Shown: piece by piece, positions 23,945 to 42,999 of the stretch
Layout of the letters: every line of letters begins with the position of its first letter
Numbering within the stretch: the first letter of the stretch is position 1
Assembly: GCA_017745595.1 (NCBI GenBank)
Contig: WMBV01000036.1
Location: forward strand, 1-55,940
Direction of reading: 5' to 3'
Length of the DNA: 55,940 nucleotides
Source of the DNA: Bordetella petrii
Lineage (GTDB): Bacteria > Pseudomonadota > Gammaproteobacteria > Burkholderiales > Burkholderiaceae_B
The notes under the pieces: generated by a model
Told to the model about the DNA's origin: nothing
Database searches by the model: none
Seen by the model: the letters and a program-made list of their open reading frames with translations, nothing else
Position numbers and translations under genes: made by a program

Positions 23945-24130
23945 GCCCGGCCATAAATTATTTTTAAGGCTCGGCGTAGACGGCCCGCCCGTCCGTGGCG
24001 AAGGCAGCAGGCATGCGGGTTTGCGGGCGATGCCGAAACTCCGGCGCGCGCGCTGGCGGCGTGGAAACCGCCGTGGCCTGCACGGCGTTATCAGGGAAAG
24101 TCCTAGGCCGCGCGAGGCGGGCGTAGGCGC

Positions 24131-25167: not shown

Positions 25168-25237
25168 GATGCGCTGCCGCCTGGTGGCAAAGCGTACCAT
25201 GCCCCCGCGCCCTGCCGCGGCGCGGGGTTGCGGGCGG

Positions 25238-26287: not shown

Positions 26288-26335
26288 GGCAAGTCTCCGT
26301 GTAGTTATCGTGGTAAAGGCCGGGGGAGCGGCTGG

Positions 26336-27142
26336 CTAGAACACGGCCAGGCGGCTGTTGAGCAGGTCGGTTACCAGCATGTGGCCGGGCGCGTGCGTAA
26401 TGCAGAACTCGGGCCGCGCCGTGGCGATGACCGACTGCGGGGTGACGCCGCAAGCCCAGAACACGGGCGTTTCGCCCTCGTGCACCGGCACGGCCTCGCC
26501 GTAATCGGGCCGTTGCAGGCTCTGAATGCCGATAAGCGCCGGGTCGCCGATGTGCACCGGCGCCCCGTGCACCGACGGGAAGCGCGAGGTGAGCTGGATG
26601 GCGCGGATGGCGTCGGCCGGCTTGAACGGCCGCATCGACACCACCAGGGGCCCCGCGAACGGCCCCGCCGGGCGGGTGGGAATGTTGCAGCGCCACATGG
26701 GCGCATTGGAGCCGCACGCGATATGGCGGACCTCGATGCCCTCGGCCAACAACGCCTCTTCGAAAGAGAACGAGCAACCGATCAGGAACGACACCAGGTC
26801 ATCGCGCCACACCTCGCGCACATCAGTGGGTTCCTGCACCAGTTCGCCATGGCGCCACACCCGGTAGCGCGGCAGGTCGGTACGGATATCGATGTCGCGG
26901 CCCAGCTCGGGCAAGGCCGGGTTGCCCGGCTCGGATACGGACAGCAGCGGGCAGGCGCGCGGGTTGCGCTGGCAAAACAGCAGAAAATCGGCGGCCAGGG
27001 CGGCGGGCAGAATGGCCAGGTTGGCCTGCACGTTGCCGGCGGCCAGCCCGGCGGTGGGCGTGGTCAGTACCCCGTTGCGGGCGTCCATCCGCACGGCGCG
27101 GCCACGTTGCGCCGCATGGTCGTGTACGCTGGTTGGCACCAT
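26336..27142 (-). CDS. UPF0317/DUF1445 family protein (D-glutamate cyclase-like), copy 2
   Basis: A 268-aa paralogue of the protein at 17788 (shared [65 protein letters not shown]). The start at 27142 has a strong AAGGGGAGA ribosome site; an upstream ATG at 27172 is less likely. It is the first gene behind the LysR-type promoter at 27171-27215 and is co-transcribed with receptor copy 2. Pairing of this family with each receptor module points to a shared substrate. Confidence 0.85.
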
Positions 27143-27170
27143 GTGTCTCCCCTTGTGATGCGTGGCGAGC

Positions 27171-27215
27171 ATTGCACCGCAAGGAGCCGCCGGGCGTCCA
27201 ATCGTATGTTTCGAT
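27171..27215 (-). promoter_or_regulatory. LysR-type operator and promoter, site 2
   Basis: Minus strand: perfect inverted repeat ATCG-N7-CGAT (27201-27215) overlapping -35 TTGGAC (27201-27196), then 19 bases and -10 TGCAAT (27176-27171). It lies 29 bases before the UPF0317 start and matches site 1 at 23901-23944 in order and sequence, so the two LysR paralogues may bind both. Confidence 0.7.
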
Positions 27216-27230
27216 GCGGGGTGATTCGTT

Positions 27231-28145
27231 TTACTTATCTTGCGGGCCGCCCAGCGCCGCGCTGTGTGCCAGGGCGAAGTCGCGGGCGAGCTCGGCCACC
27301 GTGGCGCGCAGGCGGCTGTCCGCGCCTTGCAGCCAGCTGGCGGTGAACGTCAGGTCAGGCAGCTCGACCGGCACCCGCAGCTCGCGCAGTTCGCCGCTTT
27401 CGAGCTCGCGGGAAATCACCACGCGCGCGACCACACAGGCGCCAATGCCGTCGCGCACCATGCGCACGATGGTGTTCAGCGAGCCGCTGCCGTACATGCG
27501 CGGCGTTACCACGCCGTCCTGGATCAGCAGTTCGCGCACCAGCCTGTAGGGCCAGGTGCTGGAGGCATGCGTGATAATGGGGTATGCCGCCACCCGCGCC
27601 AGCGAGACCGGGTCGGGGCCCAGATTCAGGCGCGGGCTGGCCACCCAGGCCAGGGGATACTGGCACAGCGGCAGATTCTCGACATTGGACTCTTGCACGG
27701 GCCCCATCAGGAAGGCCAGGTCGAGCTGGTGCGCCAGCAATTGCGCCCGCAGGGCCTGGCTGGTGTCGACCTCGATCTCGAACATCAATGCGGGGTGGGC
27801 GGCGTGCATGTGCTCGATGAGCGCGTACAGCCACGTATGGACAATGGTTTCGGACACGCCGATGCGGATGGTGCCCGCCATGACATCGCGGGCGCGCGCG
27901 ACATCGATCAGGTCCTGGCGCACGCGCAGCATGCGCTCGGCATGCGGCAGCAGCTCGCGTCCCTTGGGGGTAAGCGTCACGCCGCGCGCATCGCGTTCGA
28001 ACAGGCGCACTCCCAGCCCCCCCTCGAGCGAGGCGATACGCTGCGAGATGGTCGGCTGCGTGGTGTTCAGTTTTTCGGCCGCGGCGCGAAATCCACCCAG
28101 CGACGAAGCCCAGAAAAAAGTCTCGATATTTCGCAGATCTATCAT
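27231..28145 (-). CDS. LysR-family regulator, copy 2
   Basis: A 304-aa regulator with the helix-turn-helix at about 5-62 ([13 protein letters not shown]) and effector domain after residue 92. It is paralogous to the regulator at 24256 along its full length; the C-terminal 15 residues differ. It lies immediately upstream of, and in the same direction as, the UPF0317/receptor pair, with the shared operator between. The DMT permease gene diverges from it. Confidence 0.92.
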
Positions 28146-28243
28146 TGCCTGGTTCCGTGTAGCGCCAATCAGCGTATCATGTGTGCCGCCCAGACTCGCC
28201 GGCCCATATGGCCGGCGCCTTCTTGTCGTACCCAGGAGACCGC

Positions 28244-29206
28244 ATGCACCGGGCTACCACCGGGCCTGCCCCAGCCACCCAGTCCTCGCCCGCGCGCGCG
28301 CCCGCGGCGCGCCCCCTGGTGGGCATCGTACTGTTGATCTTGTCGGCCTGGACGCTGTCCTGCCTGGATGCCAGCGGCAAATGGGTGATGGAAGCCGGCG
28401 TGCCGCTGTTGCTGCTGTGCTGGGTGCGCTACCTGATGCACCTGCTGCTGGTGCTGGCCCTGGTGCTGCCCAGGCATGGCCTGGCCGTGCTGCGCAGCCG
28501 GCGCCCGCGCGAACAACTGCTGCGCGGCGGCTCGATGCTGCTGGCCACCCTGGCGCTCTTCACCACGCTGAGCTACATGCCGCAGGCCGAGGCCACGGCC
28601 ATCAATTTCCTGGCTCCGCTCATTGTGCTGGCGCTGGCCCCCTGGGTGCTGAACGAACCGCCCCGCGTATCGCGCTGGGTGGCGGCGGCCGTGGCGTTCG
28701 GCGGAGTATTGATCATCGTGCGCCCGGGCGGCGGCCTGCATCCCCTGGGCGTGCTGTTCGGCCTGCTGTCGGCCAGCTGCTTTGCCGCGCAGTTCATCGC
28801 CACCCGCCGCGTCGCGGCCGACAACCCCTATACGTCGCTGATCTGGAGCGGCGCGGTGGGCACCGTGTGCCTGACCCTGGCGCTGCCGCTGATTCTGCCG
28901 CCCGCCCTGCCCGCGCTGGCCCAGCTAAGCCCCGGCAACTGGATGCTGCTGATTTCCACCGGGGTATCCGGCGCCCTGGGCCACCTGCTGCAGATCGGCG
29001 CGTACCGCAATGCCGCGGCCTCGACGCTGGCGCCCTTCGTCTACTTGCAGATCGTCAGCGCCACGGCCGTGGGCTGGCTGGTATGGGGGCACTTCCCCGA
29101 CGCGCTGACCTGGCTGGGCATCGCCATCATCTGCGGCAGCGGCATCGTCATCGGCCTGATCGAATGGCGGCGCAACCGGATGGCCATGCCGCGCAAGCTC
29201 GCTTAG
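28244..29206 (+). CDS. EamA/DMT-family permease
   Basis: A 320-aa inner-membrane transporter with ten predicted membrane helices in two EamA repeats (about 25-155 and 165-310), probably exporting a metabolite or amino acid. The start at 28244 has AGGAGA upstream; an earlier frame start at 28181 overlaps the promoter of the LysR gene. Its last 17 codons are repeated at about 90% base identity at 41417-41466, marking this gene as the left junction of the island. Confidence 0.88.
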   Translation: MHRATTGPAPATQSSPARAPAARPLVGIVLLILSAWTLSCLDASGKWVMEAGVPLLLLCWVRYLMHLLLVLALVLPRHGLAVLRSRRPREQLLRGGSMLLATLALFTTLSYMPQAEATAINFLAPLIVLALAPWVLNEPPRVSRWVAAAVAFGGVLIIVRPGGGLHPLGVLFGLLSASCFAAQFIATRRVAADNPYTSLIWSGAVGTVCLTLALPLILPPALPALAQLSPGNWMLLISTGVSGALGHLLQIGAYRNAAASTLAPFVYLQIVSATAVGWLVWGHFPDALTWLGIAIICGSGIVIGLIEWRRNRMAMPRKLA

Positions 29207-29242
29207 CAGCCGTCGGGCAGGTTGCCGCACCGGGCGGCGCGG

Positions 29243-29899
29243 TCAGCGTCCGCCCTCGATATCCGTATCCGCTTTGGCAAGCCGCCAGTTGTCGTAGCTA
29301 GGCACTACCAGCTCGAACTGCTCGCGGGTACGGGTATAAAGCCGGCCGAACATTCGGCCCACCGGCCGGTATGCGTCAATATCGATGTAGTGGGTGGCCG
29401 GGTCGAGCAGCCCTTCCCTTATGTGCATCACCGCGATTTTTCCTATCACGATGTGCCTGCCGGGCCCGACCTGGACCCGGTCCATCATTTCACATTCGAA
29501 CGCTATCGGCGCCTCGGCGATACGGTGAGGACGCACGCGCGCCGAAGGCAACAGCGTCAAGCCGGCTTCTTCTATTTCGTTTATGCCATGGGGAAAATCG
29601 ATCGCGCACACATTCATTGCCTCGGCCATTGGCTCGTCTACCATGTGGATGACGAACTGTCCGTTTTCCTGAATATTCAACGTCGTGTCTTTCAAGCCGC
29701 CGCTGTCGCGCTTGTTCTCAAGGGACACGATCAAGACCGGGGGATTTTCTCCCATTGCATTGAAAAAACTGAAGGGCGCGGCATTGTGCCCGGCACTGTC
29801 GGACCACGTGGTAATGAGCGCGATAGGCCTGGGGACGACGGTGGACGAGATCAGCTTGTACTGGAGCGCAGGCGGCATGGCACCGATATCGATCTGCAA
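29243..29899 (-). CDS. flavin reductase-like FMN-binding protein
   Basis: A 218-aa cytoplasmic split-barrel protein of the flavin reductase-like family (STVVPRPIALITT, NAAPFSFFNAMGENPPV, GPGRHIVIGKI). Relatives supply reduced FMN to two-component monooxygenases, but no monooxygenase is nearby; others bind FMN without known partners. It is the leftmost gene of the proposed island and is divergent from the LysR gene, with an 18-bp palindrome in its promoter. Base composition is visibly less GC-rich than in the genes to the left. Confidence 0.85.
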   Translation of the reverse strand: MQIDIGAMPPALQYKLISSTVVPRPIALITTWSDSAGHNAAPFSFFNAMGENPPVLIVSLENKRDSGGLKDTTLNIQENGQFVIHMVDEPMAEAMNVCAIDFPHGINEIEEAGLTLLPSARVRPHRIAEAPIAFECEMMDRVQVGPGRHIVIGKIAVMHIREGLLDPATHYIDIDAYRPVGRMFGRLYTRTREQFELVVPSYDNWRLAKADTDIEGGR

Positions 29900-29931
29900 A
29901 GAGGTCTCTCCTGTACTGGCAAAGCGTACGA

Positions 29932-29949
29932 TATAGTCAGGTGACTATA
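29932..29949. promoter_or_regulatory. 18-bp palindromic operator candidate upstream of flavin reductase gene
   Basis: TATAGTCA-GG-TGACTATA is a perfect palindrome with 8-bp arms, 33-50 bases upstream of the flavin reductase start. It overlaps an AT-rich stretch with a TATAAT on the plus strand at 29946. Such symmetry suits a dimeric repressor of the MarR or GntR type; the cognate regulator is not obvious. Confidence 0.6.
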
Positions 29950-30093
29950 ATTGAATTTGTGCGGCCACCTAGAACAATAAACATATCAATCGGTTCGATT
30001 TCGCTATCAACACGGGCCCGGATGCGAGCGTCTACGACAATCGCATGAACGCTTGTTGCCCGCAGCCAATTTGCTGAACCAGAGCGAGGCAGA

Positions 30094-31020
30094 ATGGAAC
30101 TGCGCCAATTGCGCTATTTCGTGAGAATTGTTGAGCTCGGTGGCATGGGGCGGGCGGCGCTTGAATTCGGCGTCGCTACCGCGGCGCTAAGCCAGCAAAT
30201 CAACCGTCTGGAACGAGAACTGGGAGTCTCCTTGTTGAGCCGCCAGTCCAAAGGCGCCGTCCCGACCGAAGCGGGCTCGGCTTTTTACCGGAAAGCTCAG
30301 TTGGTGCTGCGCCATGCCGACGACGCAATCGGCGCAGCGCGCCGGCCCACCCTGACTGGCCGGGTCAGCATCGGTTTGACGCAGGCAACCGCCGGCATAC
30401 TGGGCGGGCCCTTATACCGGGCCATGCAAGAACGATATCCCGAGGTACGGCTCCACCTGGTCGAAGCATTCTCCGGCTTTCTTTTAACCATGCTGGAGGC
30501 GCGCCAGCTCGATCTGGCCATCCTGTTCCGTCCTCCTGTGGCAAACGACGCCAAGGCCGCGCCGCTGCTGAAAGAGCGCCTGTTTGCCATCTGCAGCCCT
30601 GCCGCTACTCATGCATTTTCGGGCGCAAACCTGAAGCTGGAAGAGCTTGCCGGCATACCGCTGATCCTGCCCAGCAGGGCCCATGGCCTGCGGGTACTGC
30701 TGGACACGGCTTTTTCGCAGCATGGCCTGACGCCCCTGATCGCCGCGGAAGTCGATTCGCTCGGCATGCTTCTCGAGGCGGTGCGGCTGGGCTACGGCGC
30801 CACCATACAGCAAAGCGCTGTTGCCGCCCGGCCGCCTGTCGCAGGGCTGAGCTTTGCGCAGATTTCCGATGCGGGCATGCGCCTGCAGAACTTCCTGGTC
30901 AGCCTTCCCCAGGATGAGCTTTCGCCGGCCGCGGCGGGAGCCTGCGAAGCCATACGCGACGTCGCGACCAACATGGTGAACCGGCGGCAGTGGATCGGCG
31001 CGAGCTTAAGCGATCCTTAA
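30094..31020 (+). CDS. LysR-family regulator of the island
   Basis: A 308-aa regulator, MELRQLRYFVRIVELG at the N-terminus, helix-turn-helix through VATAALSQQINRLE and an effector domain from about residue 90. The pattern resembles Nac/Cbl-type LysR proteins. It is divergent from the flavin reductase gene and followed, 125 bases on, by the Bug/deacetylase/racemase genes, which it probably controls. Confidence 0.9.
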   Translation: MELRQLRYFVRIVELGGMGRAALEFGVATAALSQQINRLERELGVSLLSRQSKGAVPTEAGSAFYRKAQLVLRHADDAIGAARRPTLTGRVSIGLTQATAGILGGPLYRAMQERYPEVRLHLVEAFSGFLLTMLEARQLDLAILFRPPVANDAKAAPLLKERLFAICSPAATHAFSGANLKLEELAGIPLILPSRAHGLRVLLDTAFSQHGLTPLIAAEVDSLGMLLEAVRLGYGATIQQSAVAARPPVAGLSFAQISDAGMRLQNFLVSLPQDELSPAAAGACEAIRDVATNMVNRRQWIGASLSDP

Positions 31021-31145
31021 CACCTGGTCGTGTTTCCGGACTGGGCAGTGGCAATCCACGGCACTACAGTGGCCCGGCTGGCGCTTTCGCCGCCTTTTCA
31101 TGCCAGCGAACGGCGACAGCCATAACAACACTTCCGGAGACACTG

Positions 31146-32123
31146 ATGATCTCGATTCGCAAATCGACCCTTGCGGGATGCATGGTGCTTGCCTTGTCGA
31201 GCACGGCCGCCGCGGCAGCGGAACAGGAATACCCAAGCAAAAGCGTCAACCTGGTGGTCGTATTCGGAGCCGGCGGCACCAGCGACGCCGTCGCGAGGAT
31301 TATCGCGGAGCCCTTGAGTGCAGCGCTGGGCACCCCGGTCGTCGTCGAGAACAAGCCAGGAGCCAGTGGAAATATTGGCGCCGCGTACGTAGCGCGCGCG
31401 GAACCCGACGGGTACACGCTATTGGCCGGGTTCCCGGGGCTGACGACGAATGGCGCGCTTTATAGCAAGCTGAACTACGACCCGGGCAAAGACTTTGCGC
31501 CGATCTCCCTGCTTGCCAGCGCGCCCAACGTAATCGTTACCAACCAGAAGCTGCCGGTCGGTTCGCTTCAGGAACTCTTCGATTACGGCAAAAAGCAGCC
31601 CGACGGGCTGAATTTCGGCTCGGCCGGCGCGGGGGCCTCATCGCATCTGGCAGGCGAGCTCTTGAAGGAAATGACGGGGGTGAAGATGACGCACATCCCC
31701 TACAAAGGAGGCGCGCCGGCCTTGGCCGACCTAGCCAGCGGCCGCCTGGATGTGATGGTCATTCCTTTGCCCGAAGCAATCGGACTGATCCGCGGCGGCA
31801 AACTCAAGGCTCTTGCGCTGGCCAGTACCCAGCGTTCACAACTGATTCCCGACGTTCCCACCACCCAAGAGGCGGGCTTGCCCGGCTTCACGGTAGGTTC
31901 ATGGTATGGCTTGATGGCGCCCGCCGCCACGCCCGCGGCAACGCGCCAGAAAATCGGCAACGCCGTCGACCGGGCCCTGGATTCCCCGAAGGCCCGGCAG
32001 GCCTTTCAGGCCCAGGGAATCGAGATGGTGAAAAGCGATGCCGCGCAATTCAAGCAGTTCCTGGATGAAGAGACCGCGCGTTGGGCACAGGTCATAGAAG
32101 CCAACCATATTCGTTTGGATTGA
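31146..32123 (+). CDS. Bug-family periplasmic solute-binding protein
   Basis: A 325-aa receptor with a signal peptide ending near AAAAAEQ, then EYPSKSVNLVVVFGAGG, VVVENKPGASG and EPDGYTLLAG. ATG 31146 follows CCGGAGA; an upstream open stretch to 30990 overlaps the LysR gene and is rejected as start. No TctAB permease is encoded in the island. It begins the operon Bug-deacetylase-racemase. Confidence 0.92.
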   Translation: MISIRKSTLAGCMVLALSSTAAAAAEQEYPSKSVNLVVVFGAGGTSDAVARIIAEPLSAALGTPVVVENKPGASGNIGAAYVARAEPDGYTLLAGFPGLTTNGALYSKLNYDPGKDFAPISLLASAPNVIVTNQKLPVGSLQELFDYGKKQPDGLNFGSAGAGASSHLAGELLKEMTGVKMTHIPYKGGAPALADLASGRLDVMVIPLPEAIGLIRGGKLKALALASTQRSQLIPDVPTTQEAGLPGFTVGSWYGLMAPAATPAATRQKIGNAVDRALDSPKARQAFQAQGIEMVKSDAAQFKQFLDEETARWAQVIEANHIRLD

Positions 32124-32141
32124 TGGACGAAGAGGAATCAG

Positions 32142-33056
32142 ATGAAACTGGAAATGGGTCCGCTCGCTACGCATGGACGTTATCGCCATTCCTCGATCGT
32201 GGACCGGCCCACGTACGAGTGGCCGGGCGGAACCAGGCTGGCGGTGCACTTCAGCCTGAATGTCGAAAGCTTCCAGTTCGGCCAGGGGCTGGGCAACGAC
32301 TACGCGGTGCCGCAGCCCCCCCCCAACGTGCGCAGCTATGCCTGGCGCGATTACGGCAATCGCGTCGGCGTCTGGCGGCTGCTGGAACTGGGCAACGACA
32401 TGGACTTGCCCTATGCCCTGCTTGCCAACAGCGACCTGTACCGCCACTGCCCCGGCGTAATCACCCCATTCAGGCAGCGCGGCGATGAGATCGTGGCACA
32501 TGGCAGAACCAACTCCGAGCGCCAGGTCGATATGAACCCGGAAGAAGAACAGGACTGCATCGACGAGGCCACGCGCACCATCGCCGCTCACGAGGGGCGT
32601 TCCCCGACGGGTTGGCTTGCGCCCTACATCTGCCAGACGCACGGCACCCTGGACATCCTCAAGGCCGCGGGCTACCAGTACATGATGGACTGGCCCCTGG
32701 ACGACCAGCCGGTCTGGTTCAAGACCCGGCACGGCCGGATACTGTCGGTGCCTTACGCGCACGACCTGAACGACTCGATCGAATGCGTGACGCGACGCAC
32801 GCCATCGCAGCTGTATTGCGACAACCTGATCGACCAGTTCGATGAGATGCTGCGGGAATCGAGTAAGCGGCCGCTGGTCATGGGCATCGTCCTGCATAGC
32901 TTCATTCTGGGGCAGCCCTACAGGCTGCGCCAGTTCCGCAAGGTCGTGGAACATATCTGCCGCCATCGAGGCGAAATATGGCTGACCCATCCCGGACGGA
33001 TCGCCGACCACGTGGCGAGCCTGCCCGACGGGATAGTGCCCGGAAGCGAGGACTGA
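32142..33056 (+). CDS. polysaccharide-deacetylase/PuuE-like hydrolase, copy 1
   Basis: A 304-aa member of the polysaccharide deacetylase superfamily in the branch of PuuE allantoinase and cyclic imide hydrolase. The usual NodB Asp-Asp motif is replaced by HFSLNVES, as in that branch, and the metal-site region reads GDEIVAHGRTNSE. WPLDDQPVWF and GIVLHSFILGQP are further conserved blocks. No signal peptide, so it is cytoplasmic and unlikely to act on polysaccharide. A paralogue lies at 35523. Hydrolysis of a cyclic amide, imide or ureide is the best guess. Confidence 0.82.
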   Translation: MKLEMGPLATHGRYRHSSIVDRPTYEWPGGTRLAVHFSLNVESFQFGQGLGNDYAVPQPPPNVRSYAWRDYGNRVGVWRLLELGNDMDLPYALLANSDLYRHCPGVITPFRQRGDEIVAHGRTNSERQVDMNPEEEQDCIDEATRTIAAHEGRSPTGWLAPYICQTHGTLDILKAAGYQYMMDWPLDDQPVWFKTRHGRILSVPYAHDLNDSIECVTRRTPSQLYCDNLIDQFDEMLRESSKRPLVMGIVLHSFILGQPYRLRQFRKVVEHICRHRGEIWLTHPGRIADHVASLPDGIVPGSED

Positions 33057-33057
33057 A

Positions 33058-33867
33058 ATGAAAATCTGGTATCAAAGCTTCACGCACCCCGCGCTTTACC
33101 CTGCCTATAACCGGGCGCTGGCCGGCCTTATCGCCGGCTTGCACGAGCCGTCCACGCAAGTGGACATACACTGCCTGGAGCAATCGGGCGGGCTGGCCAA
33201 GCAACATCATTACCTGGAACACTTGCAGACCACCGAAGTCCTGGACAATGTCGAAAAAGCCGTGGAAGCGGGCTACGACGCGTTTGCGATCGGGCATTTC
33301 ACGGATTCGGGCCTGCAGGCGGCCCGCGAAATAGCGTCGATTCCTGTTCTGGGCCTGGGCGAATCCAGCATGCTTACCGCATGCATGATGGGGCGCAAAT
33401 TCTCGCTCGTCGGCATCAACCCCAAGTCGCTGGCTTGCGTGGCCGACAACGTGCATGCCTATGGCCTGTCCGGCCGGCTGGCGGGCGTGGCGGCAATGGT
33501 GTTCGACGAGCCATCCGCGCTTGAACAAGGCTTTTCCGACGCCGCTGCCCGCAAGCGGGTCGTCGACTCTTTTACGCAGGCATCAGACCAGACCCTGGCC
33601 ATGGGCAGTGAGGTCATTATTCCGGCGGGGGGGATTGCCATGGCGATGCTTACCGTTGCCGGCATACACGCGGTTGGCCGCGGGGCCAGCGTGCTGAATG
33701 GTATTGCCGCTCTCATCAAATGCGCCGAAATGGCCGCAAGAATGAATGAGTTCATGGGCGGCCGGTTCACAAGCAAGCAACTCAGCTACGCTCCGCCCAC
33801 GCTTTCCGAGATGGAGGCCATCAGGCAATACCACGGAACACAGGTGTATCGTTCCCTGCGGCGTTGA
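33058..33867 (+). CDS. Asp/Glu/hydantoin racemase-family protein lacking catalytic cysteines
   Basis: A 269-aa protein with the two-domain racemase fold. In active family members a Cys stands in the first loop (xxxCFxDxGL) and a second in xxGCAGM. Here the segments read AIGHFTDSGL and IIPAGGIAMAM, so both cysteines are missing (His and Ala/Gly at those places). Either the active site uses another chemistry or the protein is a non-catalytic or isomerase-like relative. It starts one base after the deacetylase stop, so it is co-translated. Confidence 0.8.
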   Translation: MKIWYQSFTHPALYPAYNRALAGLIAGLHEPSTQVDIHCLEQSGGLAKQHHYLEHLQTTEVLDNVEKAVEAGYDAFAIGHFTDSGLQAAREIASIPVLGLGESSMLTACMMGRKFSLVGINPKSLACVADNVHAYGLSGRLAGVAAMVFDEPSALEQGFSDAAARKRVVDSFTQASDQTLAMGSEVIIPAGGIAMAMLTVAGIHAVGRGASVLNGIAALIKCAEMAARMNEFMGGRFTSKQLSYAPPTLSEMEAIRQYHGTQVYRSLRR

Positions 33868-33956
33868 CCCGGCCGGGCTTCAAGTTTCCGAAGCGCCGCT
33901 CGCCGGGCGCTTGTTCCCGATTTTCTTCGGCTCCGCACATCTTCGAGGTGGACGAC

Positions 33957-34952
33957 ATGGTCAGATCGATACATTCAATACAGATGTTCATGACGGTGGC
34001 AGACGAGCTTCATTTTCGAAGGGCCGCGGAACGGCTGCACATGACCCAGCCGCCGCTCAGCCTGCGCATCAAGCAGCTCGAGGAATCGCTGGGGGTGGAT
34101 TTATTCTGCCGGACGACGCGCACGGTACAGCTGACGCCGGCCGGCAAAGAGCTGCATGAACGTGCAAAGCGCTGGCTGCAGGATCTCGATATCATGATGG
34201 ACGCCGTGAAAAGCGTGGGCCAGGGCACGACGGGGTCGCTGCAACTCGGGTTCCCGCCAAGCACCATGTTTCACACGCTGCCCAGATTGCTTGAGACCTA
34301 TCGCGACCGGCACCCGCAAGTCGCCCTGGATCTCCACGAAATGCCGTCCGACGACCTTCTGAACGCCGTGCGGCAAGGCAGGCTGCACGCTGCTCTGGCC
34401 CGGACGTCCCCTGCCTCGATGGGGCCCGATCTCGACTATGTGGTGGCCGCCAGGGAAACCATGGTCCTGGCCATGCCTAAAGACCACCCGCTTGCGGCGT
34501 TGGAACAAATACCGGCGCAGCGCCTGGACCGGGTCGCATTTATCGGGTTTTCGCCAAGCGGCTCCCGGTATTTCCATGAACTTGTGTCCCATTTCTTTGA
34601 TGCGCATGGGATCCGGCCGCTCATGATGCATGAAAGCGTCTTGCCGACCATTCTGGCCCTGGTCGAGGCCGGCCTTGGAATCGCATTGGTCCCCGCCTCG
34701 TTAAGAAACCTCAGGACAGAACGACTGACCTACAGGCAGGTCGCCTGCAAGCAGCCGATGGATCCGGCAACCCTGTACTGTGTCTGGCGCAGGCCAGACG
34801 TAACACCTGCCATCCAGAACCTGGTCAAGGTCGTTCTCGGGAACCGGGCCGCCGACGAAGCCATCGCCATGGACACAGCCGCGCCGGCGCCGGCGGCACT
34901 CGCCCGCACCCCGGCAATGCCGCCGCCCGGAACCAGTGCGACCATTACTTGA
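33957..34952 (+). CDS. LysR-family regulator of the island, second
   Basis: A 331-aa regulator (BenM/CatR-like pattern): MVRSIHSIQMFMTVADELHF, then RLHMTQPPLSLRIKQLE, and an effector domain from about 92. The C-terminus carries a roughly 25-residue Ala/Pro-rich extension. ATG 33957 is preceded by GAGGTGG; the frame opens earlier at 33864 without a site. Its last eight bases overlap the 3' end of the convergent isochorismatase-family gene. Confidence 0.88.
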   Translation: MVRSIHSIQMFMTVADELHFRRAAERLHMTQPPLSLRIKQLEESLGVDLFCRTTRTVQLTPAGKELHERAKRWLQDLDIMMDAVKSVGQGTTGSLQLGFPPSTMFHTLPRLLETYRDRHPQVALDLHEMPSDDLLNAVRQGRLHAALARTSPASMGPDLDYVVAARETMVLAMPKDHPLAALEQIPAQRLDRVAFIGFSPSGSRYFHELVSHFFDAHGIRPLMMHESVLPTILALVEAGLGIALVPASLRNLRTERLTYRQVACKQPMDPATLYCVWRRPDVTPAIQNLVKVVLGNRAADEAIAMDTAAPAPAALARTPAMPPPGTSATIT

Positions 34953-35493
34953 TCAGTGCCTGGATCGCCTTGAACCGGGGGTGCTCCGCGGTGGCCAGCC
35001 ATTCGAACAGCACCATCTCGGTCGTGGCGATTTCACAGCCAGCCGCGGCAAGGCGGTCCATCGCCGCCTGCCGGCTCATTTCAGTGCGCGAGCCGCACGC
35101 GTCGCCCACAACGAACACGTCTCTGCCGTCCGCTTTGAACTGCAGGGCCGTTTGCAGCAAGCATATGTGCGCTTCGCACCCTGCGATGACAAGGCTGCGC
35201 CGGCCTGCCGCCCGCCCGGCGGGGTCATGCGCGCGCAGCCTGCCACCCAGCCCTGTTGCCGCCGCGCCAAAACACATTTTGGCGAAAGTCTCGTCTGCCA
35301 GACCGCTCAGTTCCGGATCGCCAGGCCCCAGCTTTTCCGGGTTCTGCTCTGTGGCATAAACCGGAACGCCAAGCAAGCCTGCCGCCTTGGCCAGCCGCCT
35401 GGCGTTTTTCAGCACCAGATCGGCGCCGGCCAGCGCCGCCATGAGACGAGGCTGGAAATCGATCAAGACCAGGCTGGACAGCGACGCGTCCAT
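34945..35493 (-). CDS. isochorismatase-family cysteine hydrolase
   Basis: A 182-aa cytoplasmic hydrolase of the isochorismatase superfamily (VLIDFQPRLM with the catalytic Asp, VYATEQNPEKLG, and VIAGCEAHICLLQTAL with the nucleophilic Cys and preceding cis-peptide). Members hydrolyse amides such as nicotinamide, maleamate, N-carbamoylsarcosine and biuret-type compounds. ATG 35493 has AGGA seven bases upstream and a conserved N-terminus; the frame opens to 35556 and would overlap the deacetylase gene. It fits as an amidase acting after the deacetylase-family enzyme. Confidence 0.82.
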   Translation of the reverse strand: MDASLSSLVLIDFQPRLMAALAGADLVLKNARRLAKAAGLLGVPVYATEQNPEKLGPGDPELSGLADETFAKMCFGAAATGLGGRLRAHDPAGRAAGRRSLVIAGCEAHICLLQTALQFKADGRDVFVVGDACGSRTEMSRQAAMDRLAAAGCEIATTEMVLFEWLATAEHPRFKAIQALIK

Positions 35494-35522
35494 GATCCTG
35501 GGCGTAGCCGGCAGGGTGGCGT

Positions 35523-36416
35523 TCAAATCAGTGTTCCTTCCGGCAGCGCCATGCAATGCCGATAGATATCCCGCGGCCGTGTCAGCCAGACCCGGTCGAA
35601 CCGCGGGTGGCCGACAATGTGATCCAGGACGCGGCGCAGCTGGCGCAGGCGCTGCGGCTGCCCGACGATCATCGTGTGCAGCGCCACACCCAGTACCAGC
35701 GGCTGCTGTTCCGACTGCAGCAACATCTCGTCGAACTGATCGATGGTCATGTCGGCGAATTCTGTCGCGGTATGGCGGCGCACGATCATCTGGGGAGAAT
35801 CGTTGATCTCGAACGAATACGGGATGGACATGATCCTGCCGTTACGGGTTTTCAGCCACAGGGGCTGATCGTCGCACGGCCAGTCCATGGCATAGCGGAA
35901 TCCCGCCTCTTCGAGTAGATCGGGCGTCGTCGCGCTTTGCGACATCCAGGGGCCCATCCAGCCCTGCACATGCTGGCCGGTGTGCTTGTGGATGTCGTTT
36001 CTTACCTCCTCGATCATGCGCCGCTCGTCGTCCTCCCACCACTGCCCCTGGCGCTCGGAATTCGTCCGCCCATGTCCGATCACTTCGTCTCCGCGGCTCG
36101 AGACGGCCTGAGCGATCTCGGGGCAGTAATCGAAAACGCAGGTATTGATGAGGTGGCACGCGGGAAGCTGGTATTGGTCGAACAGAGCCAGCAGCCGCCA
36201 TACCCCCACCCGGTTGCCATAATCGCGCCATGCAAACGTGCGCGGATCCGGGCTCGGCAACTCGGTCGAAAGCGCATGGCCTATTCCGGCGCCATAGGCG
36301 AAATGCTCGATATTGAGCGCGAAATAAAGCGCAAGGCGCTTTCCTTCCGGCCAGCTGTATTCAGGGCGTCGAACGATCGACGAATGCGCGTATCGATGGT
36401 GATGTGGCAATCGCAT
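35523..36416 (-). CDS. polysaccharide-deacetylase/PuuE-like hydrolase, copy 2
   Basis: A 297-aa paralogue of the protein at 32142 (shared RYxHSSIVxRPxY, AWRDYGNRVGVWRLL, RGDEVIGHGRTNSER, QPLVLGVALHTMIVGQP). It keeps the same altered NodB motif (YFALNIEH). Two copies in facing operons suggest two related substrates or stereoisomers. It is in the same direction as the isochorismatase-family gene, 29 bases upstream of it. Confidence 0.82.
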   Translation of the reverse strand: MRLPHHHRYAHSSIVRRPEYSWPEGKRLALYFALNIEHFAYGAGIGHALSTELPSPDPRTFAWRDYGNRVGVWRLLALFDQYQLPACHLINTCVFDYCPEIAQAVSSRGDEVIGHGRTNSERQGQWWEDDERRMIEEVRNDIHKHTGQHVQGWMGPWMSQSATTPDLLEEAGFRYAMDWPCDDQPLWLKTRNGRIMSIPYSFEINDSPQMIVRRHTATEFADMTIDQFDEMLLQSEQQPLVLGVALHTMIVGQPQRLRQLRRVLDHIVGHPRFDRVWLTRPRDIYRHCMALPEGTLI

Positions 36417-36430
36417 TTTTCGTCCCCTGC

Positions 36431-38077
36431 TCAGGTGCTGCTGGCGGCGAACTTCACCGTCGAGGCACGGGCCGCGAAGTCGGTGACCACATTCACCAGC
36501 GCGGGGGTTCCGGCCTTGACCGCCTTGGCCGCGCGCGCCAGGGCGGGACGTATGTCTTCGGGATTTTCCACGTGCTCGGCATGGCAGCCGAGTGACCGGG
36601 CCAGCTCGTCGAACCGGGTGTAGCCCAGGTTTCTGCCCGGTTTTTCGCCATTCGGGTCGGCCGTCCAGCCGCCGTTCAGGCTGATCACGACCATGACCGC
36701 AAGCCGGTGGCGCACCGCGGTGTCCAGCTCCATTCCATTCATGCCGAAAGACCCGTCGCCGTGCAGCACGATTACCTGGCTATCCGGCGATGCGGCCTTG
36801 GCCCCCAGACCGAACGGAAGTCCCACCCCCATTGTGCCGAAGGGTCCTGAATTCAGGCGGTGCCCGGGAGTGCAGGTCGGTATGGTCTGCCGCCCGTAAT
36901 TGAGGATCTCCTGGCCATCCACCACGAGTATGGCGTCCCTGTCCATGAAGTCCCGGATCTCCTTGCACAGCCGCAAGGGATGTATGGGCGTCTGATCGGT
37001 ACTGATGGACTGCTCTTGCCTGGCGCGCCGTTCCATTTCGATTTTCCGCAGCCTTGCGCGCCACGGCGCATACGATTCCGAATCGATTTTTCCTTTAGCC
37101 GCCGCGCACAGCTGCTCGAGCACGGCCCCCGCATCCCCGACCATGCCGATATCCAGGCGGGCGCTGTTGTCGATCTCGGAAGGATCGATATCGATGCGGA
37201 TCAACTTTGCGTCCGGGCTGAATCGAGGAGGCCGGCCTTGCCCGAAAACGTAGTTCAAGCGCGTGCCGGCCACGAGTACGACATCCGCTTCCTTGAGCGC
37301 TGTAGAACGGGCGTTGAGAAACATGCCCTCGTGATCCTCCGGCACGACCCCTCGTCCCTGGGGAGTGGTATAGAGCGGCATCCCCGTCAATTCCATCCAC
37401 TGCCGAAGCTGGGCGGAAGCGCCCGACCACAGCACGCCGCTGCCCGATATCGTGACGGGCCGCTTGGCGGCCTTCAATAGCCCGATGGCATCCCGGACCA
37501 GGACAGGATCGGCCTGGGACCGCGCCGGCTTCAGAGGCCGCCGCAAGTCGGGCCATTTGATATCCGCCTCTTCCACCGACTGGTACAGGACATTGCCGGG
37601 CAAATCGACATAGACCGGCCCGGGCTTTCCGGACAGCGCCTTGCGAAAAGCCAGCGCGATGATCTCGGGAATACGGTGCGTCTCGTACACGCGTTCGGCC
37701 CATTTCGTCAGCGGCTTCATGGCCGCCACCTGGTCGAATTCCTGGAAGCCGCCGGTCAGGTACTCGTTGATCGGGCCCGAGCCACCCAACGCAACAACCG
37801 GCGCGCAGTCCACCAAGGCGGTTCCCAGCCCCGTCCCGAAGTTCAGCACCCCGGGGCCGGAGCATGCCATGCACACGCCGGGCTGGTTCTTGATGCGGCT
37901 ATAGGCGTGGGCCATCATTGCGGCGGCCTGCTCGTGCCGGACGTCGATGCCTCGGATGCCGCGCTCGATACTGGCCTTTTCGGCCCCCAGCATGGGAGCC
38001 CCCATGACGAAAAAGAAAGAGTCGACGCCCAGGCGCTTGAGGGTTTCGGCGACGAGTTCGGAACCAGTGATAGACAT
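36431..38077 (-). CDS. TPP-dependent enzyme (2-hydroxyacyl-CoA lyase / acetolactate synthase-like)
   Basis: A 548-aa three-domain thiamine diphosphate enzyme. Catalytic Glu49 in RHEQAAAM, central domain GSGVLWSGA and GTRLNYVFGQG, and the TPP-Mg motif GDGSFGMNGMELDTAVRHRL near residue 430. GQGRPPRF and the ending of the central domain recall oxalyl-CoA decarboxylase and 2-hydroxyacyl-CoA lyases more than true acetolactate synthase, and no regulatory small subunit is nearby. The neighbouring acyl-CoA ligase supports a CoA-thioester substrate. The reaction remains unproven. Confidence 0.82.
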   Translation of the reverse strand: MSITGSELVAETLKRLGVDSFFFVMGAPMLGAEKASIERGIRGIDVRHEQAAAMMAHAYSRIKNQPGVCMACSGPGVLNFGTGLGTALVDCAPVVALGGSGPINEYLTGGFQEFDQVAAMKPLTKWAERVYETHRIPEIIALAFRKALSGKPGPVYVDLPGNVLYQSVEEADIKWPDLRRPLKPARSQADPVLVRDAIGLLKAAKRPVTISGSGVLWSGASAQLRQWMELTGMPLYTTPQGRGVVPEDHEGMFLNARSTALKEADVVLVAGTRLNYVFGQGRPPRFSPDAKLIRIDIDPSEIDNSARLDIGMVGDAGAVLEQLCAAAKGKIDSESYAPWRARLRKIEMERRARQEQSISTDQTPIHPLRLCKEIRDFMDRDAILVVDGQEILNYGRQTIPTCTPGHRLNSGPFGTMGVGLPFGLGAKAASPDSQVIVLHGDGSFGMNGMELDTAVRHRLAVMVVISLNGGWTADPNGEKPGRNLGYTRFDELARSLGCHAEHVENPEDIRPALARAAKAVKAGTPALVNVVTDFAARASTVKFAASST

Positions 38078-38098
38078 GACTACCTCGAATAAAAGTGA

Positions 38099-40282
38099 TC
38101 AGGCATTCGTGCAGGCCGGGCTCGACGTGCGCGCGGCCGCCGCGTCCGCCGGCGGCGCCGATAAAATGATGCGGGCATCCACGATGGAGCAGCCCTCGCG
38201 ATGCGCCACTATCGGATTCAAGTCGATTTCGACGATCTCGGGATGCGCCATGGCCACTTCGGATATGCGCAAGAGCACATCCACGATCCATTCCTTGTCT
38301 ACGGGAGGGTTGCCCCGTGCACCGTCCAGAACCGCCTTGTGCCGGATTTCCTCCACCATTTCTCTCGCATCGGCTCGCGTGACCGGCACGGCGCGGAAGG
38401 CCAGGTCCCGCATGATCTCGACGAATACTCCACCCAGGCCGAACACGAGCACCCGCCCATAGATGGGATCCTGCAGCAGGCCCACCAGCAGCTCGGTGCC
38501 TTTGGGAACCATGGGTGTGGCCAGATAGCCATGGATATGGGCGTGCGCGACATGCTGCCTTACCGAGGATTCGATCGACTGGATGGCGGCGGCGATCGCG
38601 CCGGTGCCCGCGATACCCAGCCGCACCCCGCCGACATCCGACTTATGCAGCACGTCCTTCGAAATCACCTTGATCGCCAGTGGCGCCGCGCCGAATGCCT
38701 CGACCGCGCGCACCGCGTCGCCGGCATTGGCGACCACGAGTTGCGGCTCGGTGTCGATGCCGTACAACTTCAGCAGCGAGGTCGCTTCGGGTTCGAGCAG
38801 ATGGCGCCCGGCGGCGTGCGCGGCCTGGATGATCTCCGTAGCCGCCGGAGAGGCTTGCGCGGGCGCTCGCCGCCCGGCAACCAGCCGTTTTCTATTGGAT
38901 TCATAGCGGGCGCCGGCGGCAAGGCACTGGACCGCGGTCTCGATGTGCCGCTGAAAGGGAATGCCTTCTTTGCGCAGTAAATCCAGCGAGTCCGTTTTCA
39001 TGTGGGCGAAATGGGACTGGACCAGCACCGGCTTGCCGTAGGTTCGCATCATCCTGCCCAGGCTCTTGCAGACACGTTCCTCGACGGCTCCCGCTTCGGG
39101 CCCCCATCGGTGCCCATAGCCGCCGAACAGGCCGACCAGCAGCAGGCCATCGATACCGGGATCTTGCAGCACGGCATCGGCGATGGACTCGTAGTATTCG
39201 GGCCGGGGGTCCGTGCCGCCACCGGCATCCACGGGGTTGGAAATGGCGGTTGCGTTGGGAACGATTTCCTTGATCCGCTGGACGGTGCGGGCCGACAGTT
39301 GCGGCAGTTCCAGGCCACGGTCGGCGCATGCTTCCGAGGCAACGGTGATCGGTCCTCCGCCTTCGGACACGACTGCGATCCGCTTGCCGTTCATCGGCGG
39401 CAATAAGGCCAGCGCTTCGGCAATGGGAAACAATTCATCCGAACGATCGGTGACGACGATCCCTGCCTGTTCGAGCACGCTCTTGCTGACGGCATAGTCG
39501 CCGGCCAGAGACCCGCTGTGCGATTTCGCCGCGCTGCGGCCGGCAGCGTTGCGGCCGGCGACGTACATGACGATGGGCTTCTGGACGCTTGCGCGGCGGG
39601 CGCTTTCCAGGAAGGCCCCGGCGTCCTTGAAGCCTTCCACATAGAAAATGATGGACTTGGTCTCGGCGTCGGTGGCCAGAAAATCCAGGTACTCGTCGAA
39701 CCGGATGTCGGATTGGTTACCCACCGACAACATCACGCCCACGCCGCTATGGCCATTCACGATCATTTCGTTCTGCAACGACGACATGATGTTCGCCGAG
39801 TTGGATAGAATCGAGATGTTGCCCCTGGGCAAGCCGAGGGTGCCGATCGTGTTGCAGCCGAGGCGCGCGCTGAAGGTGCCGTTCGTGTTCGGGCCGATGA
39901 GGCGCACGTTGTACCGTTTCGCGACGGCAACGGTTTCCTCTTCCAGCAGGCGCCCTGCTTCGCTGGCTTCGGAAAAACCGCCGGCAAGCAGCACCGCTCC
40001 CTTGGTTCCGGCCCGGCCGCAGGCCTCGACCACGGCCGGGGCCGTTCGCGCCGACGTACAAACGACGGCCAGATCGACCGCTTCAGGAATATCTTGCACC
40101 GACGCATAGCATTCGAAACCCAGGATCTCTTTTTCCTTGGGATTGACGGGATAGATCTTGCCTTGATACTTATCGGCGATAAGAGAGGCGATTGCCCGGT
40201 ATCCCCGTTTTGCCGAATCACGCGATGCGCCAATGATGGCGACGGACCGGGGGTGTATGAGAGGTTCGAGATAATGCGTCAT
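38099..40282 (-). CDS. ADP-forming acyl-CoA synthetase (acetate-CoA ligase type, fused alpha-beta)
   Basis: A 727-aa fused enzyme of the NDP-forming acyl-CoA synthetase family. The CoA-binding domain (about 8-140; SVAIIGASRD) is followed by the succinyl-CoA-ligase-like domains, with the conserved His in SHSGSLAGDY and a C-terminal ATP-grasp domain (AIKVISKDVLHKSDVGGV). It activates an organic acid to its CoA thioester with ATP, giving ADP and phosphate. Start ATG 40282 has AGGAA upstream. It lies between the TPP enzyme and a Bug gene, all in one operon. Confidence 0.88.
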   Translation of the reverse strand: MTHYLEPLIHPRSVAIIGASRDSAKRGYRAIASLIADKYQGKIYPVNPKEKEILGFECYASVQDIPEAVDLAVVCTSARTAPAVVEACGRAGTKGAVLLAGGFSEASEAGRLLEEETVAVAKRYNVRLIGPNTNGTFSARLGCNTIGTLGLPRGNISILSNSANIMSSLQNEMIVNGHSGVGVMLSVGNQSDIRFDEYLDFLATDAETKSIIFYVEGFKDAGAFLESARRASVQKPIVMYVAGRNAAGRSAAKSHSGSLAGDYAVSKSVLEQAGIVVTDRSDELFPIAEALALLPPMNGKRIAVVSEGGGPITVASEACADRGLELPQLSARTVQRIKEIVPNATAISNPVDAGGGTDPRPEYYESIADAVLQDPGIDGLLLVGLFGGYGHRWGPEAGAVEERVCKSLGRMMRTYGKPVLVQSHFAHMKTDSLDLLRKEGIPFQRHIETAVQCLAAGARYESNRKRLVAGRRAPAQASPAATEIIQAAHAAGRHLLEPEATSLLKLYGIDTEPQLVVANAGDAVRAVEAFGAAPLAIKVISKDVLHKSDVGGVRLGIAGTGAIAAAIQSIESSVRQHVAHAHIHGYLATPMVPKGTELLVGLLQDPIYGRVLVFGLGGVFVEIMRDLAFRAVPVTRADAREMVEEIRHKAVLDGARGNPPVDKEWIVDVLLRISEVAMAHPEIVEIDLNPIVAHREGCSIVDARIILSAPPADAAAARTSSPACTNA

Positions 40283-40300
40283 GGTGATTCCTGCCTGCAT

Positions 40301-41266
40301 TTACTGGGGCTTGATACCTGCCGACTGCGCCAGCTGGCGGTACTTCTCGACTTCCGCGTCGACGAACGACTTGAAGTCCTGGACGCTGCCGCCCAGCGGC
40401 TCGAGTCCCATCGCATGGAAGCGCTGCTTGAATTCCGGATTTCCAAGTGCTTTGCCAATGGCCGCATTGAGGGCCTGGACGATTTCATCGGGCGTGCCCG
40501 CCGGCGCCGCCAAGCCGATCCACCCCACCAGCTCGTAGTTGTGAAGCCCCAGTTCATCCAACGAGGGCACGTCCGGCAGCAATGAAGTTCTTTTTGTCGT
40601 CGTGACGGCCAGCGGGCGGAGCTTGCCCGCCTGAATGAACGGAAGCACCTCTGGAACCGCGGCAAACATCAGGTTGACTTGGCCGCCCAGTAGATCCGTC
40701 ACCGCGTTCGCCCCGCCCCTGTACGGCACCTGGATCAGCTTGGTTCCCGTCATCTGCATGAACAGTTCGCCAGCCATGTGCTGGGGGCCGCCGATCGAGA
40801 CGATTGCGTAGTTCAGCTTGTCCGGCTTGGCTCGCGCGAGTTCGATCAGCTCTGCGACCGACGTCACGGAAACAGAGGAGTTCGTGACCAGCACATTGGG
40901 TTGCGCCGCAATCAGCGCCACCGGCGTTAAATCTTTGCGCGGATCGTAGGTCAGGTTCTTGAATAGGCTGGGCGCCGCCGCCAGCGTGGTTGCCGCGCTC
41001 ATCAGCAGGGTGTAGCCATCCGGGTCGGAGTTGGCCACGTAAGCGGCGCCGATATTGGCGCTGGCGCCCGATTTGTTTTCGATCACGAACGTCTGACGGA
41101 AGGTGTCTTCCAGCTTCTTTGCGATCTCGCGGCCCACCATATCGACGCTTCCGCCCGCGGTATAGGGCACGACTATCTTCACGGGCCTGTCCGGATAAGG
41201 ACCGGCATTCGCCAATGCCGATACGCCCAGCAATACCCCCAGCACGGCTATCAATCTTGCGATCAT
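40301..41266 (-). CDS. Bug-family periplasmic solute-binding protein
   Basis: A 321-aa receptor with signal peptide ending ALANAG, then PYPDRPVKIVVPYTAGG, FVIENKSGASAN and DPDGYTLLMS. It is the first gene of the leftward operon that continues with the acyl-CoA ligase, TPP enzyme, deacetylase and isochorismatase genes. A strong promoter precedes it. With the receptor at 31146 the island has two Bug proteins and no membrane subunits. Confidence 0.92.
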   Translation of the reverse strand: MIARLIAVLGVLLGVSALANAGPYPDRPVKIVVPYTAGGSVDMVGREIAKKLEDTFRQTFVIENKSGASANIGAAYVANSDPDGYTLLMSAATTLAAAPSLFKNLTYDPRKDLTPVALIAAQPNVLVTNSSVSVTSVAELIELARAKPDKLNYAIVSIGGPQHMAGELFMQMTGTKLIQVPYRGGANAVTDLLGGQVNLMFAAVPEVLPFIQAGKLRPLAVTTTKRTSLLPDVPSLDELGLHNYELVGWIGLAAPAGTPDEIVQALNAAIGKALGNPEFKQRFHAMGLEPLGGSVQDFKSFVDAEVEKYRQLAQSAGIKPQ

Positions 41267-41314
41267 GTTCCGCTCCTTGAATGACGGAATGTCCTGTTCA
41301 CAACATTGAAAAAA

Positions 41315-41344
41315 AGTATAGGTAGCGCCTTAGGGGGGGTCCAA
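41315..41344 (-). promoter_or_regulatory. promoter of the leftward island operon
   Basis: Minus strand: TTGGAC (41344-41339), 18 bases, TATACT (41320-41315), about 50 bases before the Bug ATG. The spacer contains a run of seven C on the minus strand. CAATAT repeats just upstream (about 41343-41375) could be regulator half-sites. Confidence 0.65.
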
Positions 41345-41413
41345 TATTGCTTTTGTTCCGATTGATATTGCCCGTGTACTAATCACGGACGGCACGATTC
41401 CGGGCATCCTCCG

Positions 41414-41488
41414 GGCGGCAGCGGCATCGCCATCGGCTTGATCGAATGGCGACGCAGCCGGATGGTCGCCCTAAGCCAACCGGCCTGA
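41414..41488 (+). pseudogene. remnant of the 3' end of an EamA/DMT permease gene
   Basis: Translating from 41417 gives GSGIAIGLIEWRRSRMV... and a stop at 41486-41488. The first 50 bases match the end of the permease gene at 28244-29206 (bases 29135-29184) at 45 of 50 positions, and the reading frame is the same. Homology stops abruptly to the left at about 41414. There is no start or upstream body, so it is a broken end left behind at an insertion or recombination junction. Confidence 0.85.
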
Positions 41489-41508
41489 CGCGGGCTCACC
41501 AGGTCGCC

Positions 41509-41637
41509 AGGTGTCTGACTCCCGCAACGGTTCAGACACAGACGAACAGGTGTCAGGCTCCGCAGGTGCCTGACACCGCTGCGTGAGAGGCGTTCTGCTC
41601 ACTTCGGTGTCTGACACCCTTCGGGAGTCAGACACCT
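41509..41637. repeat. REP-like unit cluster (three units)
   Basis: Units at 41509-41540 (AGGTGTCTGACTCC...), 41548-41577 (the GTCAGGC subtype) and 41606-41637 (reverse orientation, AGTCAGACACCT). The last ends two bases before the stop codon of the ABC ATPase gene. The gap 41267-41508 holds only the promoter and the permease remnant. Confidence 0.88.
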
Positions 41638-41639
41638 GC

Positions 41640-42332
41640 CTATACATCGGTGTCTGCTTCGGCTGGCTGCAGCCGGCCCGCCGCCAGAACCAGTTGCCGG
41701 CCGCAGCGGGCCGCCAATTGCGTGTCGTGAGTGACCAGCACCAGCGTGGTGCCGTGCTCGCGGTGCAGATCGAACATCAGGTCGACCACGGTGGCGCCGG
41801 TGGCGGCGTCGAGGCTGCCGGTGGGTTCGTCGGCGAACAGCAGGTCGGGCTGCACCACGAAGGCGCGGGCCAGCGACACCCGCTGTTGCTCGCCGCCGGA
41901 CAGGGTGCGCGGATAGTGGTGCAGGCGCTCGCCCAGCCCCACCCGCTGCAGCATTGCCTGGGCGGCGTCGCGCGCGGGCTGGCCGGCCAGTTCCAGCGGC
42001 AGCATTACGTTTTCCAGGGCCGTCAGGTTGGACAGTAACTGGAACGACTGGAACACGAAGCCCACATGGCGCGCGCGCAGCCGCGCCCGGCCGTCTTCAT
42101 CGAGCGAGAACAGGTCCTGGCCGGCCAGCCGGACGGTGCCGGCCGAAGGAACATCCAGGCCGGCCATCAGTCCCAATAATGTGGACTTGCCGGAGCCCGA
42201 ACTGCCGGTAATGGCCACGGCGTCGCCGGCGGCCACCGTAAAATCGATTCCGTCCAGGATCGACAACGTACCGCCCGCGTCGGACACCTGCTTGCCCAGC
42301 CCAGAGACTTCGATCGAGACCTTGCTATCCAT
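41640..42332 (-). CDS. ybbA: YbbA/LolD-type ABC transporter ATPase
   Basis: A 230-aa ATPase of the LolD/MacB group: Walker [19 protein letters not shown], signature LSGGEQQR, Walker B LLFADEPTGSLD, switch His LVTHD. Adjacency to tesA in divergent orientation matches E. coli ybbA-tesA. The ybbP membrane partner expected downstream is absent; a REP cluster and the island junction occupy its place. The ATG at 42332 shares the bases CATG with the tesA start codon. The last residues (AEADTDV) overlap REP-like sequence. Confidence 0.85.
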   Translation of the reverse strand: MDSKVSIEVSGLGKQVSDAGGTLSILDGIDFTVAAGDAVAITGSSGSGKSTLLGLMAGLDVPSAGTVRLAGQDLFSLDEDGRARLRARHVGFVFQSFQLLSNLTALENVMLPLELAGQPARDAAQAMLQRVGLGERLHHYPRTLSGGEQQRVSLARAFVVQPDLLFADEPTGSLDAATGATVVDLMFDLHREHGTTLVLVTHDTQLAARCGRQLVLAAGRLQPAEADTDV

Positions 42333-42999
42333 GCGCTTATTCTTCCGTTCGTTTGTTGCCTCCGCCATGGCGGCCGCCCTGATCTTGCCGGCCGCCCAGG
42401 CTCAGACCGCCGCCCCGGCCCCGGGTTCCGCCGCCCGCACCCTGCTGGTGGTGGGCGACAGCCTGTCGGCCGAATATGGGCTGGCGCGCGGCACCGGATG
42501 GGTGCCGCTGCTGGCCCGGCGGATGTCAGAACAATACCCCAACTACCAGGTGGTCAATGCCAGCATCAGCGGCGACACGACCAGCGGCGGCGTCACCCGC
42601 CTGCCGGCGCTGCTCGAACGCCACAAGCCGGCGGTGGTGATCCTGGAGCTGGGCTCGAACGACGCCCTGCGCGGCCTGTCACTGCAAATGACCGAACAGA
42701 ACCTGCGCGACATGGCCCGGCGGTCGCGCCAGGCGGGCGCCCGGGTGTTGATCGTGGGCATGCAGATTCCGCCCAATTACGGGCGCGATTACACCCAGCG
42801 CTTCGCCGCCCTATTCCCCGCGGTGGCCCGGGCCGAACAGGCCGGCCTGGTGCCGTTCTTGATGGAAGGCATGGCCACCGACCGCGCGCTGTTCCAGGCC
42901 GACGGCATACACCCGAACGAACAGGCGCAGCCGGCGCTGCTGGAAAACGTATGGGCCGCGCTGCGGCCCATACTCGAGGAACTTCAGCCGGCTGACTGA
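42331..42999 (+). CDS. tesA: periplasmic SGNH esterase / acyl-CoA thioesterase I
   Basis: A 222-aa secreted esterase with a signal peptide ending PAAQAQ. SGNH blocks are present: GDSLSAEYGL (Ser nucleophile), SISGDTTSGG (Gly), LGSNDALRG (Asn) and DGIHPN (catalytic Asp and His). It acts on thioesters, lysophospholipids or aryl esters in the periplasm. Its start overlaps that of the divergent ABC ATPase, and its 3' end overlaps ppiD by 16 bases. Confidence 0.9.
   Translation: MRLFFRSFVASAMAAALILPAAQAQTAAPAPGSAARTLLVVGDSLSAEYGLARGTGWVPLLARRMSEQYPNYQVVNASISGDTTSGGVTRLPALLERHKPAVVILELGSNDALRGLSLQMTEQNLRDMARRSRQAGARVLIVGMQIPPNYGRDYTQRFAALFPAVARAEQAGLVPFLMEGMATDRALFQADGIHPNEQAQPALLENVWAALRPILEELQPAD

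Follow-up and report, generated by a model that had tools for sequence, protein, structure and literature searches.

Gene content of the EamA/ybbA region

The window, the whole stretch of 55,940 nucleotides of Bordetella petrii DNA that was analysed, carries an EamA-family permease gene and a ybbA-like gene separated by a 12-kb block, with the following features.

28181-29206, + strand: EamA-family permease gene, intact (PF00892); orthologue in 8/8 congeners; its 3' end may be imported
29133-29183, + strand: left copy of a 51-bp direct repeat (EamA 3' end)
29243-29899, - strand: flavin reductase-like protein (PF01613)
30094-31020, + strand: LysR regulator 1 (PF00126, PF03466)
30990-32123, + strand: TctC/Bug-type receptor 1, start codon uncertain (PF03401)
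32142-33056, + strand: PuuE-like polysaccharide-deacetylase-family hydrolase 1 (PF01522; PuuE allantoinase 3cl6, E = 4e-24)
33058-33867, + strand: Asp/Glu/hydantoin racemase-family protein (PF01177; putative hydantoin racemase 3qvk, E = 1e-14)
33864-34952, + strand: LysR regulator 2, start codon uncertain (PF00126, PF03466)
34945-35556, - strand: isochorismatase-like hydrolase (PF00857)
35523-36416, - strand: PuuE-like hydrolase 2 (PF01522; TIGR03212 below its cutoff)
36431-38077, - strand: TPP enzyme of the oxalyl-CoA decarboxylase / 2-hydroxyacyl-CoA lyase type (three TPP domains; 8vzj, E = 7e-104)
38099-40300, - strand: NDP-forming acyl-CoA synthetase (PF13549, PF13607, PF13380)
40301-41266, - strand: TctC/Bug-type receptor 2 (PF03401)
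41415-41488, + strand: EamA 3'-end stump, comprising the right repeat copy, a diverged tail and a stop
41502-41654: repeat element, named REP-like in an earlier sequence-only reading of this DNA, between the stump and ybbA and slightly overlapping the ybbA 3' end
41640-42368, - strand: ybbA-like ABC ATPase, conserved right neighbour, convergent to EamA (PF00005); orthologue in 8/8 congeners

The permease reading frame is intact with its stop at 29206, and its family match confirms the gene as the sequence-only reading had placed it. Pfam assigned the 11 ORFs of the block to a flavin reductase, two LysR regulators, two TctC receptors, two PuuE-like hydrolases, a racemase, an isochorismatase-like hydrolase, a TPP enzyme and a CoA synthetase, bearing out the earlier description of its content as catabolic, regulatory and receptor genes only. 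Pfam gave no recombinase match among these 11 ORFs. The nearest structures to the TPP enzyme are those of oxalyl-CoA decarboxylase and 2-hydroxyacyl-CoA lyase, and among the matches listed all of its NCBIfam matches fall below cutoff. The two PuuE-like genes are related and lie in opposite orientation within the island; contig C5 of the same genome carries relatives of both at 70-71% DNA identity. The REP-like element has at least 39 further matches across this genome, with three matches in G001, four in G002 and none in the other six congeners (E <= 1e-20).

Composition of the block

Lower GC and different codon use had been claimed for positions 29207-41413, and both were found deviant when computed. 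GC content is 0.621 in this interval and 0.675 in the rest of the window. The lowest-GC stretch of island size, scanned in 100-base steps, starts at 29,201. Mean GC3 is 0.755 for the 11 island ORFs vs 0.866 for 18 flank ORFs picked by the analyst (Mann-Whitney p = 8e-5), and a synonymous codon likelihood comparison of the same island and flank ORFs gave p = 4e-5.

The EamA 3' end is repeated at the right edge

The 3' end of EamA recurs at 41415-41465, where 47 of 51 bases are identical (92%) and the first 15 match, so that a direct repeat of the 3' end of the target gene is present at both island edges. Its E value across the whole 6.1-Mb genome is 1.4e-13, and the repeat is therefore not due to chance. 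The EamA-end pair was the sole direct repeat longer than 24 nt found within 28900-41800. The right copy can be read on in frame as far as a TGA at 41486-41488, and over the final 27 coding bases the stump matches intact EamA at 15. The 24-codon in-frame remnant of the earlier reading is thus confirmed, with corrected figures: it starts at 41415, not 41414, and the identity is 47/51, not 45/50.

The left edge of the stump is sharp: EamA matches, the stump's own self-match aside, start at or after 41414 and nearly all at 41415. We rejected the idea of a decayed extension of the stump upstream of 41415, since the best local match there is 7 bases in 40, which 529 of 2000 random window stretches equalled. 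No terminal inverted repeats were found at the island edges. The two longest inverted pairs at the island are the two PuuE-like genes, and the third is the REP-like repeat element, at 41508-41638; a 19-nt inverted pair (84%) linking the EamA end with a position ~500 bp inside the right edge was taken as chance.

The EamA/ybbA junction in relatives

The junction was compared in a genus sample of nine genomes, this one included, giving eight congeners. Flanking gene order is conserved among them, and the island is absent from the site in 8/8. The proposed comparison for an empty site showed a short junction in four congeners and a different insert in the other four, and the refuting condition named in the sequence-only reading, presence of these 12 kb with normal composition in all close relatives, did not hold. 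The distance from the EamA stop to the ybbA match is 107 bp in G002, 86 bp in G005, 31 bp in G004 and 106 bp in G007; the stop of the stump lies 151 bp from ybbA, near this range. G003, G006, G001 and G008 instead have inserts of 1.76-1.91 kb; every pair of these is alike, and blastn matched none of them to the island. Divergence of ybbA is ordinary (92% identity to G002).

Across the family, EamA and ybbA are convergent in all of at least 75 genomes with both hits paired on one contig, with a gap of <300 bp in 27 and of 0.9-14.7 kb in 48, this genome included; these counts are lower bounds that cover part of the listed rows, with G031 set aside for having its two hits on different contigs. 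The insert of G012 contains ABC-transporter parts, a LysR gene and an enoyl-CoA reductase, and that of G226 is 14.7 kb long with LysR, TauD-like and TctC genes. When 15 other junction inserts >300 bp were compared, blastn matched none of them to the island, and each gave at most short, chance-level matches to the EamA end of its own genome (best E = 0.005).

Other junctions on the left flank vary in length too: among the congeners, the junction at 17645-17788 spans ~0.1-5 kb and that at 23954-24256 spans 0.2-2 kb, as judged by match ends. Junction inserts are therefore common here, and a view of the EamA/ybbA junction as a hot spot was cut to a weak claim; the site is permissive rather than proven special. 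That it serves again and again as a landing place, with imported catabolic modules able to bring an EamA end along as an integrase-free recombination handle, appears highly doubtful. A 2.9-kb cassette at 25238-28145 (DctP receptor, D-glutamate cyclase-like protein, LysR), lying between the conserved LysR gene at 24256-25200 and EamA, occurs only here and in G003, that conserved gene directly adjoining EamA in the other seven congeners; its GC3 is flank-like.

Search for a source or second copy

Both island halves were searched against 268 family genomes at E <= 1e-100, with two candidate stretches scored per genome. The right part (36431-41266) matched only its own genome (1/268). The left part (29243-36416) matched 11/268, own included; the 12 matches in the ten other genomes are each 0.7-0.9 kb long at 70-75% and lie at the positions of the PuuE-like genes. 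None of the 267 other family genomes thus gave a long match to either half. A plasmid search for near matches with 30094-41266 gave no match, and no donor locus joining EamA to the island was found. Since the site is short or differently filled in the congeners and no long match was found in the family, the 12-kb block is an acquisition in this lineage.

A scan of genome contigs with the CoA synthetase returned three distant relatives at 40-42% identity, with no match to other island proteins near them in the stretches compared. In a draw of 399 genomes of the order, the TPP enzyme had a best match of 68%, and matches at E <= 1e-160 in 16 genomes, own included. Neighbourhoods of 15.5-20 kb were compared in nine of the 15 other genomes. 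An NDP-forming CoA synthetase (~54%) lies near the TPP homologue in 5/9 and a TctC receptor in 8/9; PuuE-like, racemase and isochorismatase-like proteins had no match (E <= 1e-10) in any of the nine stretches. Accordingly, genomes from another genus in the order share the CoA/TPP/TctC part of the island, and the compared stretches show no hydrolase part.

Comparison of the two EamA ends

The intact end and the stump were compared over a body, running from ten codons before a Glu-Trp pair through three codons after it, and a tail formed by the following bases. They differ at 5/45 positions in the body, one of these lying immediately beyond the 51-bp repeat, and at 12/27 in the tail (Fisher p = 0.003). 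EamA ends of different species mostly show the same pattern, with 1/45 and 10/27 differences between the intact end and G002 and 0/45 and 10/24 between G002 and G008; the stump and G005 are an exception (10/45 and 8/27, p = 0.58). Such a conserved body and variable tail are what orthologues from different species show, and the comparison therefore favours two alleles brought together, as judged from 72 bases in a single draft assembly.

The check proposed in the earlier reading, whether the intact 3' end is foreign, showed an end that looks genus-typical and not measurably foreign; its nearest counterparts are those of G008, G002 and G001, in line with membership of the genus. Among 200 family genomes drawn, five gave the intact end a higher score than the stump did: G008, G002, G001, G006 and, with a gene from another genus, G114. 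Along most of its length EamA keeps an even identity to G002, 0.86-0.94 per 100 bp from 28331 on. The stump, which scored 75.2 bits against the intact gene and 75.2 bits against G008, is the more diverged of the two ends. One point in favour of the import is a codon that reads AAC, a derived state, in the intact copy and AGC in the stump and in 6/8 congeners. The motif CGGATGG is common to both ends and absent in 8/8 congeners, as a shared lineage or a very close donor would leave it. This sharing, the genus-typical look of the intact end, its even identity to G002 and the equal scores of the stump count against an imported end. Since the stump adjoins ybbA, the place held by the EamA end in the four short sites, it is taken as the probable displaced end of the resident EamA gene.

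Route of entry

In the route that we propose, incoming DNA from a congener would have carried an EamA 3' end already joined to the island and would have recombined with the resident EamA through homology of the gene ends. The other end of the import would have joined illegitimately inside the last 75 bp of the resident gene, at the stretch GCGGCAGCGGCATCG. EamA would have kept working with the imported end, leaving the resident end as a stump beside its original neighbour ybbA. That the ~12.2-kb catabolic island, in which no integrase was detected, reached the convergent EamA/ybbA junction by horizontal transfer together with the EamA end of a congener is, in our judgement, just on the probable side.

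In prophage e14 of E. coli, the element supplies a substitute 3' end for the protein gene icd and displaces the native one; e14 has an integrase. The locus described here would resemble e14/icd in having a substitute 3' end and a displaced native end, and is unlike it in that no integrase was detected. In islands inserted in tRNA genes, the attachment site likewise restores the gene end. Site-specific integration into the EamA 3' end, with an attachment site restoring the gene and later loss of the integrase, would account for the direct repeat of the gene end at both edges with its 15-bp identical stretch, for the sharp left edge of the stump and for the low GC of the island, and the available part of one report describes B. 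petrii islands as integrating at tRNA gene ends and leaving direct repeats (PMC2717098). We nevertheless regard it as rather unlikely, given that none of the 11 island ORFs matched a recombinase and that the 15 other junction inserts >300 bp have no more than short chance-level matches, each to the EamA end of its own genome. Both this route and homology-assisted illegitimate recombination fit, and the latter is preferred because no integrase was found and because a displaced 3' end is the scar it would be expected to leave.

Two further accounts differ in how they assign the two ends. If the EamA 3' end had been duplicated in this lineage at insertion, the intact gene would be wholly native and the stump merely decayed, in keeping with the fit of the intact end to the genus, the presence of CGGATGG in both ends and the larger number of changes from the genus pattern in the stump. 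Against this stand the contrast between tail and body, a uniform-decay test of a recent duplicate (p = 1e-5; p = 0.008 with the intact tail also free to vary) and the higher scores of the intact end against four congeners and G114 than against the stump, which makes this account, with the stump as a duplicate changed by drift alone, unlikely. It is most improbable that the island came in with its right flank, the intact gene being the resident and the stump the broken EamA end of the donor: the stump is indeed the more diverged copy, but the ordinary divergence of ybbA gives no sign of a foreign right flank.

The sequence-only reading had offered insertion with reconstitution of the gene end, or homologous replacement. 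Insertion is well supported; reconstitution of the end we only infer, the intact end not being measurably foreign. As regards homology-facilitated illegitimate recombination, a stump is present, and neither a donor nor a same-species empty site was found by which to place the crossovers.

Comparison with known islands

The available portions of the published descriptions of B. petrii report the genomic islands GI1-GI7 and an integrase-less region 'GI', the latter given as having no integrase and direct repeats (PMC2572626, PMC2717098). As far as those portions go, the island described here resembles them as an accessory block with catabolic genes and atypical GC, and differs from most of the seven islands, which have integrase genes, conjugal transfer functions and tRNA loci; it is 12 kb long, has no detected mobility gene and lies at the end of a protein gene. 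Displaced 3' ends arising from homology-facilitated illegitimate recombination have been proposed for T6SS modules of V. cholerae (PMC5361080). In the available part of that source, homology anchors a new module on one side and older 3' gene parts are shifted downstream, as proposed here; unlike those modules, the present case joins a catabolic island with a short permease-end stump, and neither a donor nor repeated events were seen. The block is an ordinary genomic island, unusual only in its clean footprint.

Predicted function and significance

Family resemblances suggest that the TctC-type receptors take up, and the PuuE-, racemase- and isochorismatase-like enzymes hydrolyse, a nitrogen-containing compound. 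The resulting product would pass to the CoA ligase and the 2-hydroxyacyl-CoA lyase-like TPP enzyme, with the LysR regulators in control. Because of the resemblance to PuuE, hydantoin racemase and isochorismatase-type hydrolase, our guess at the substrate is a cyclic amide or ureide. As a small catabolic island in which no mobility genes were detected, the locus is a clear example of its type, and its scar may still show the entry route. The TPP enzyme, CoA ligase and TctC receptor, which also lie close together in five genomes belonging to a different genus of the order, form a candidate pathway.
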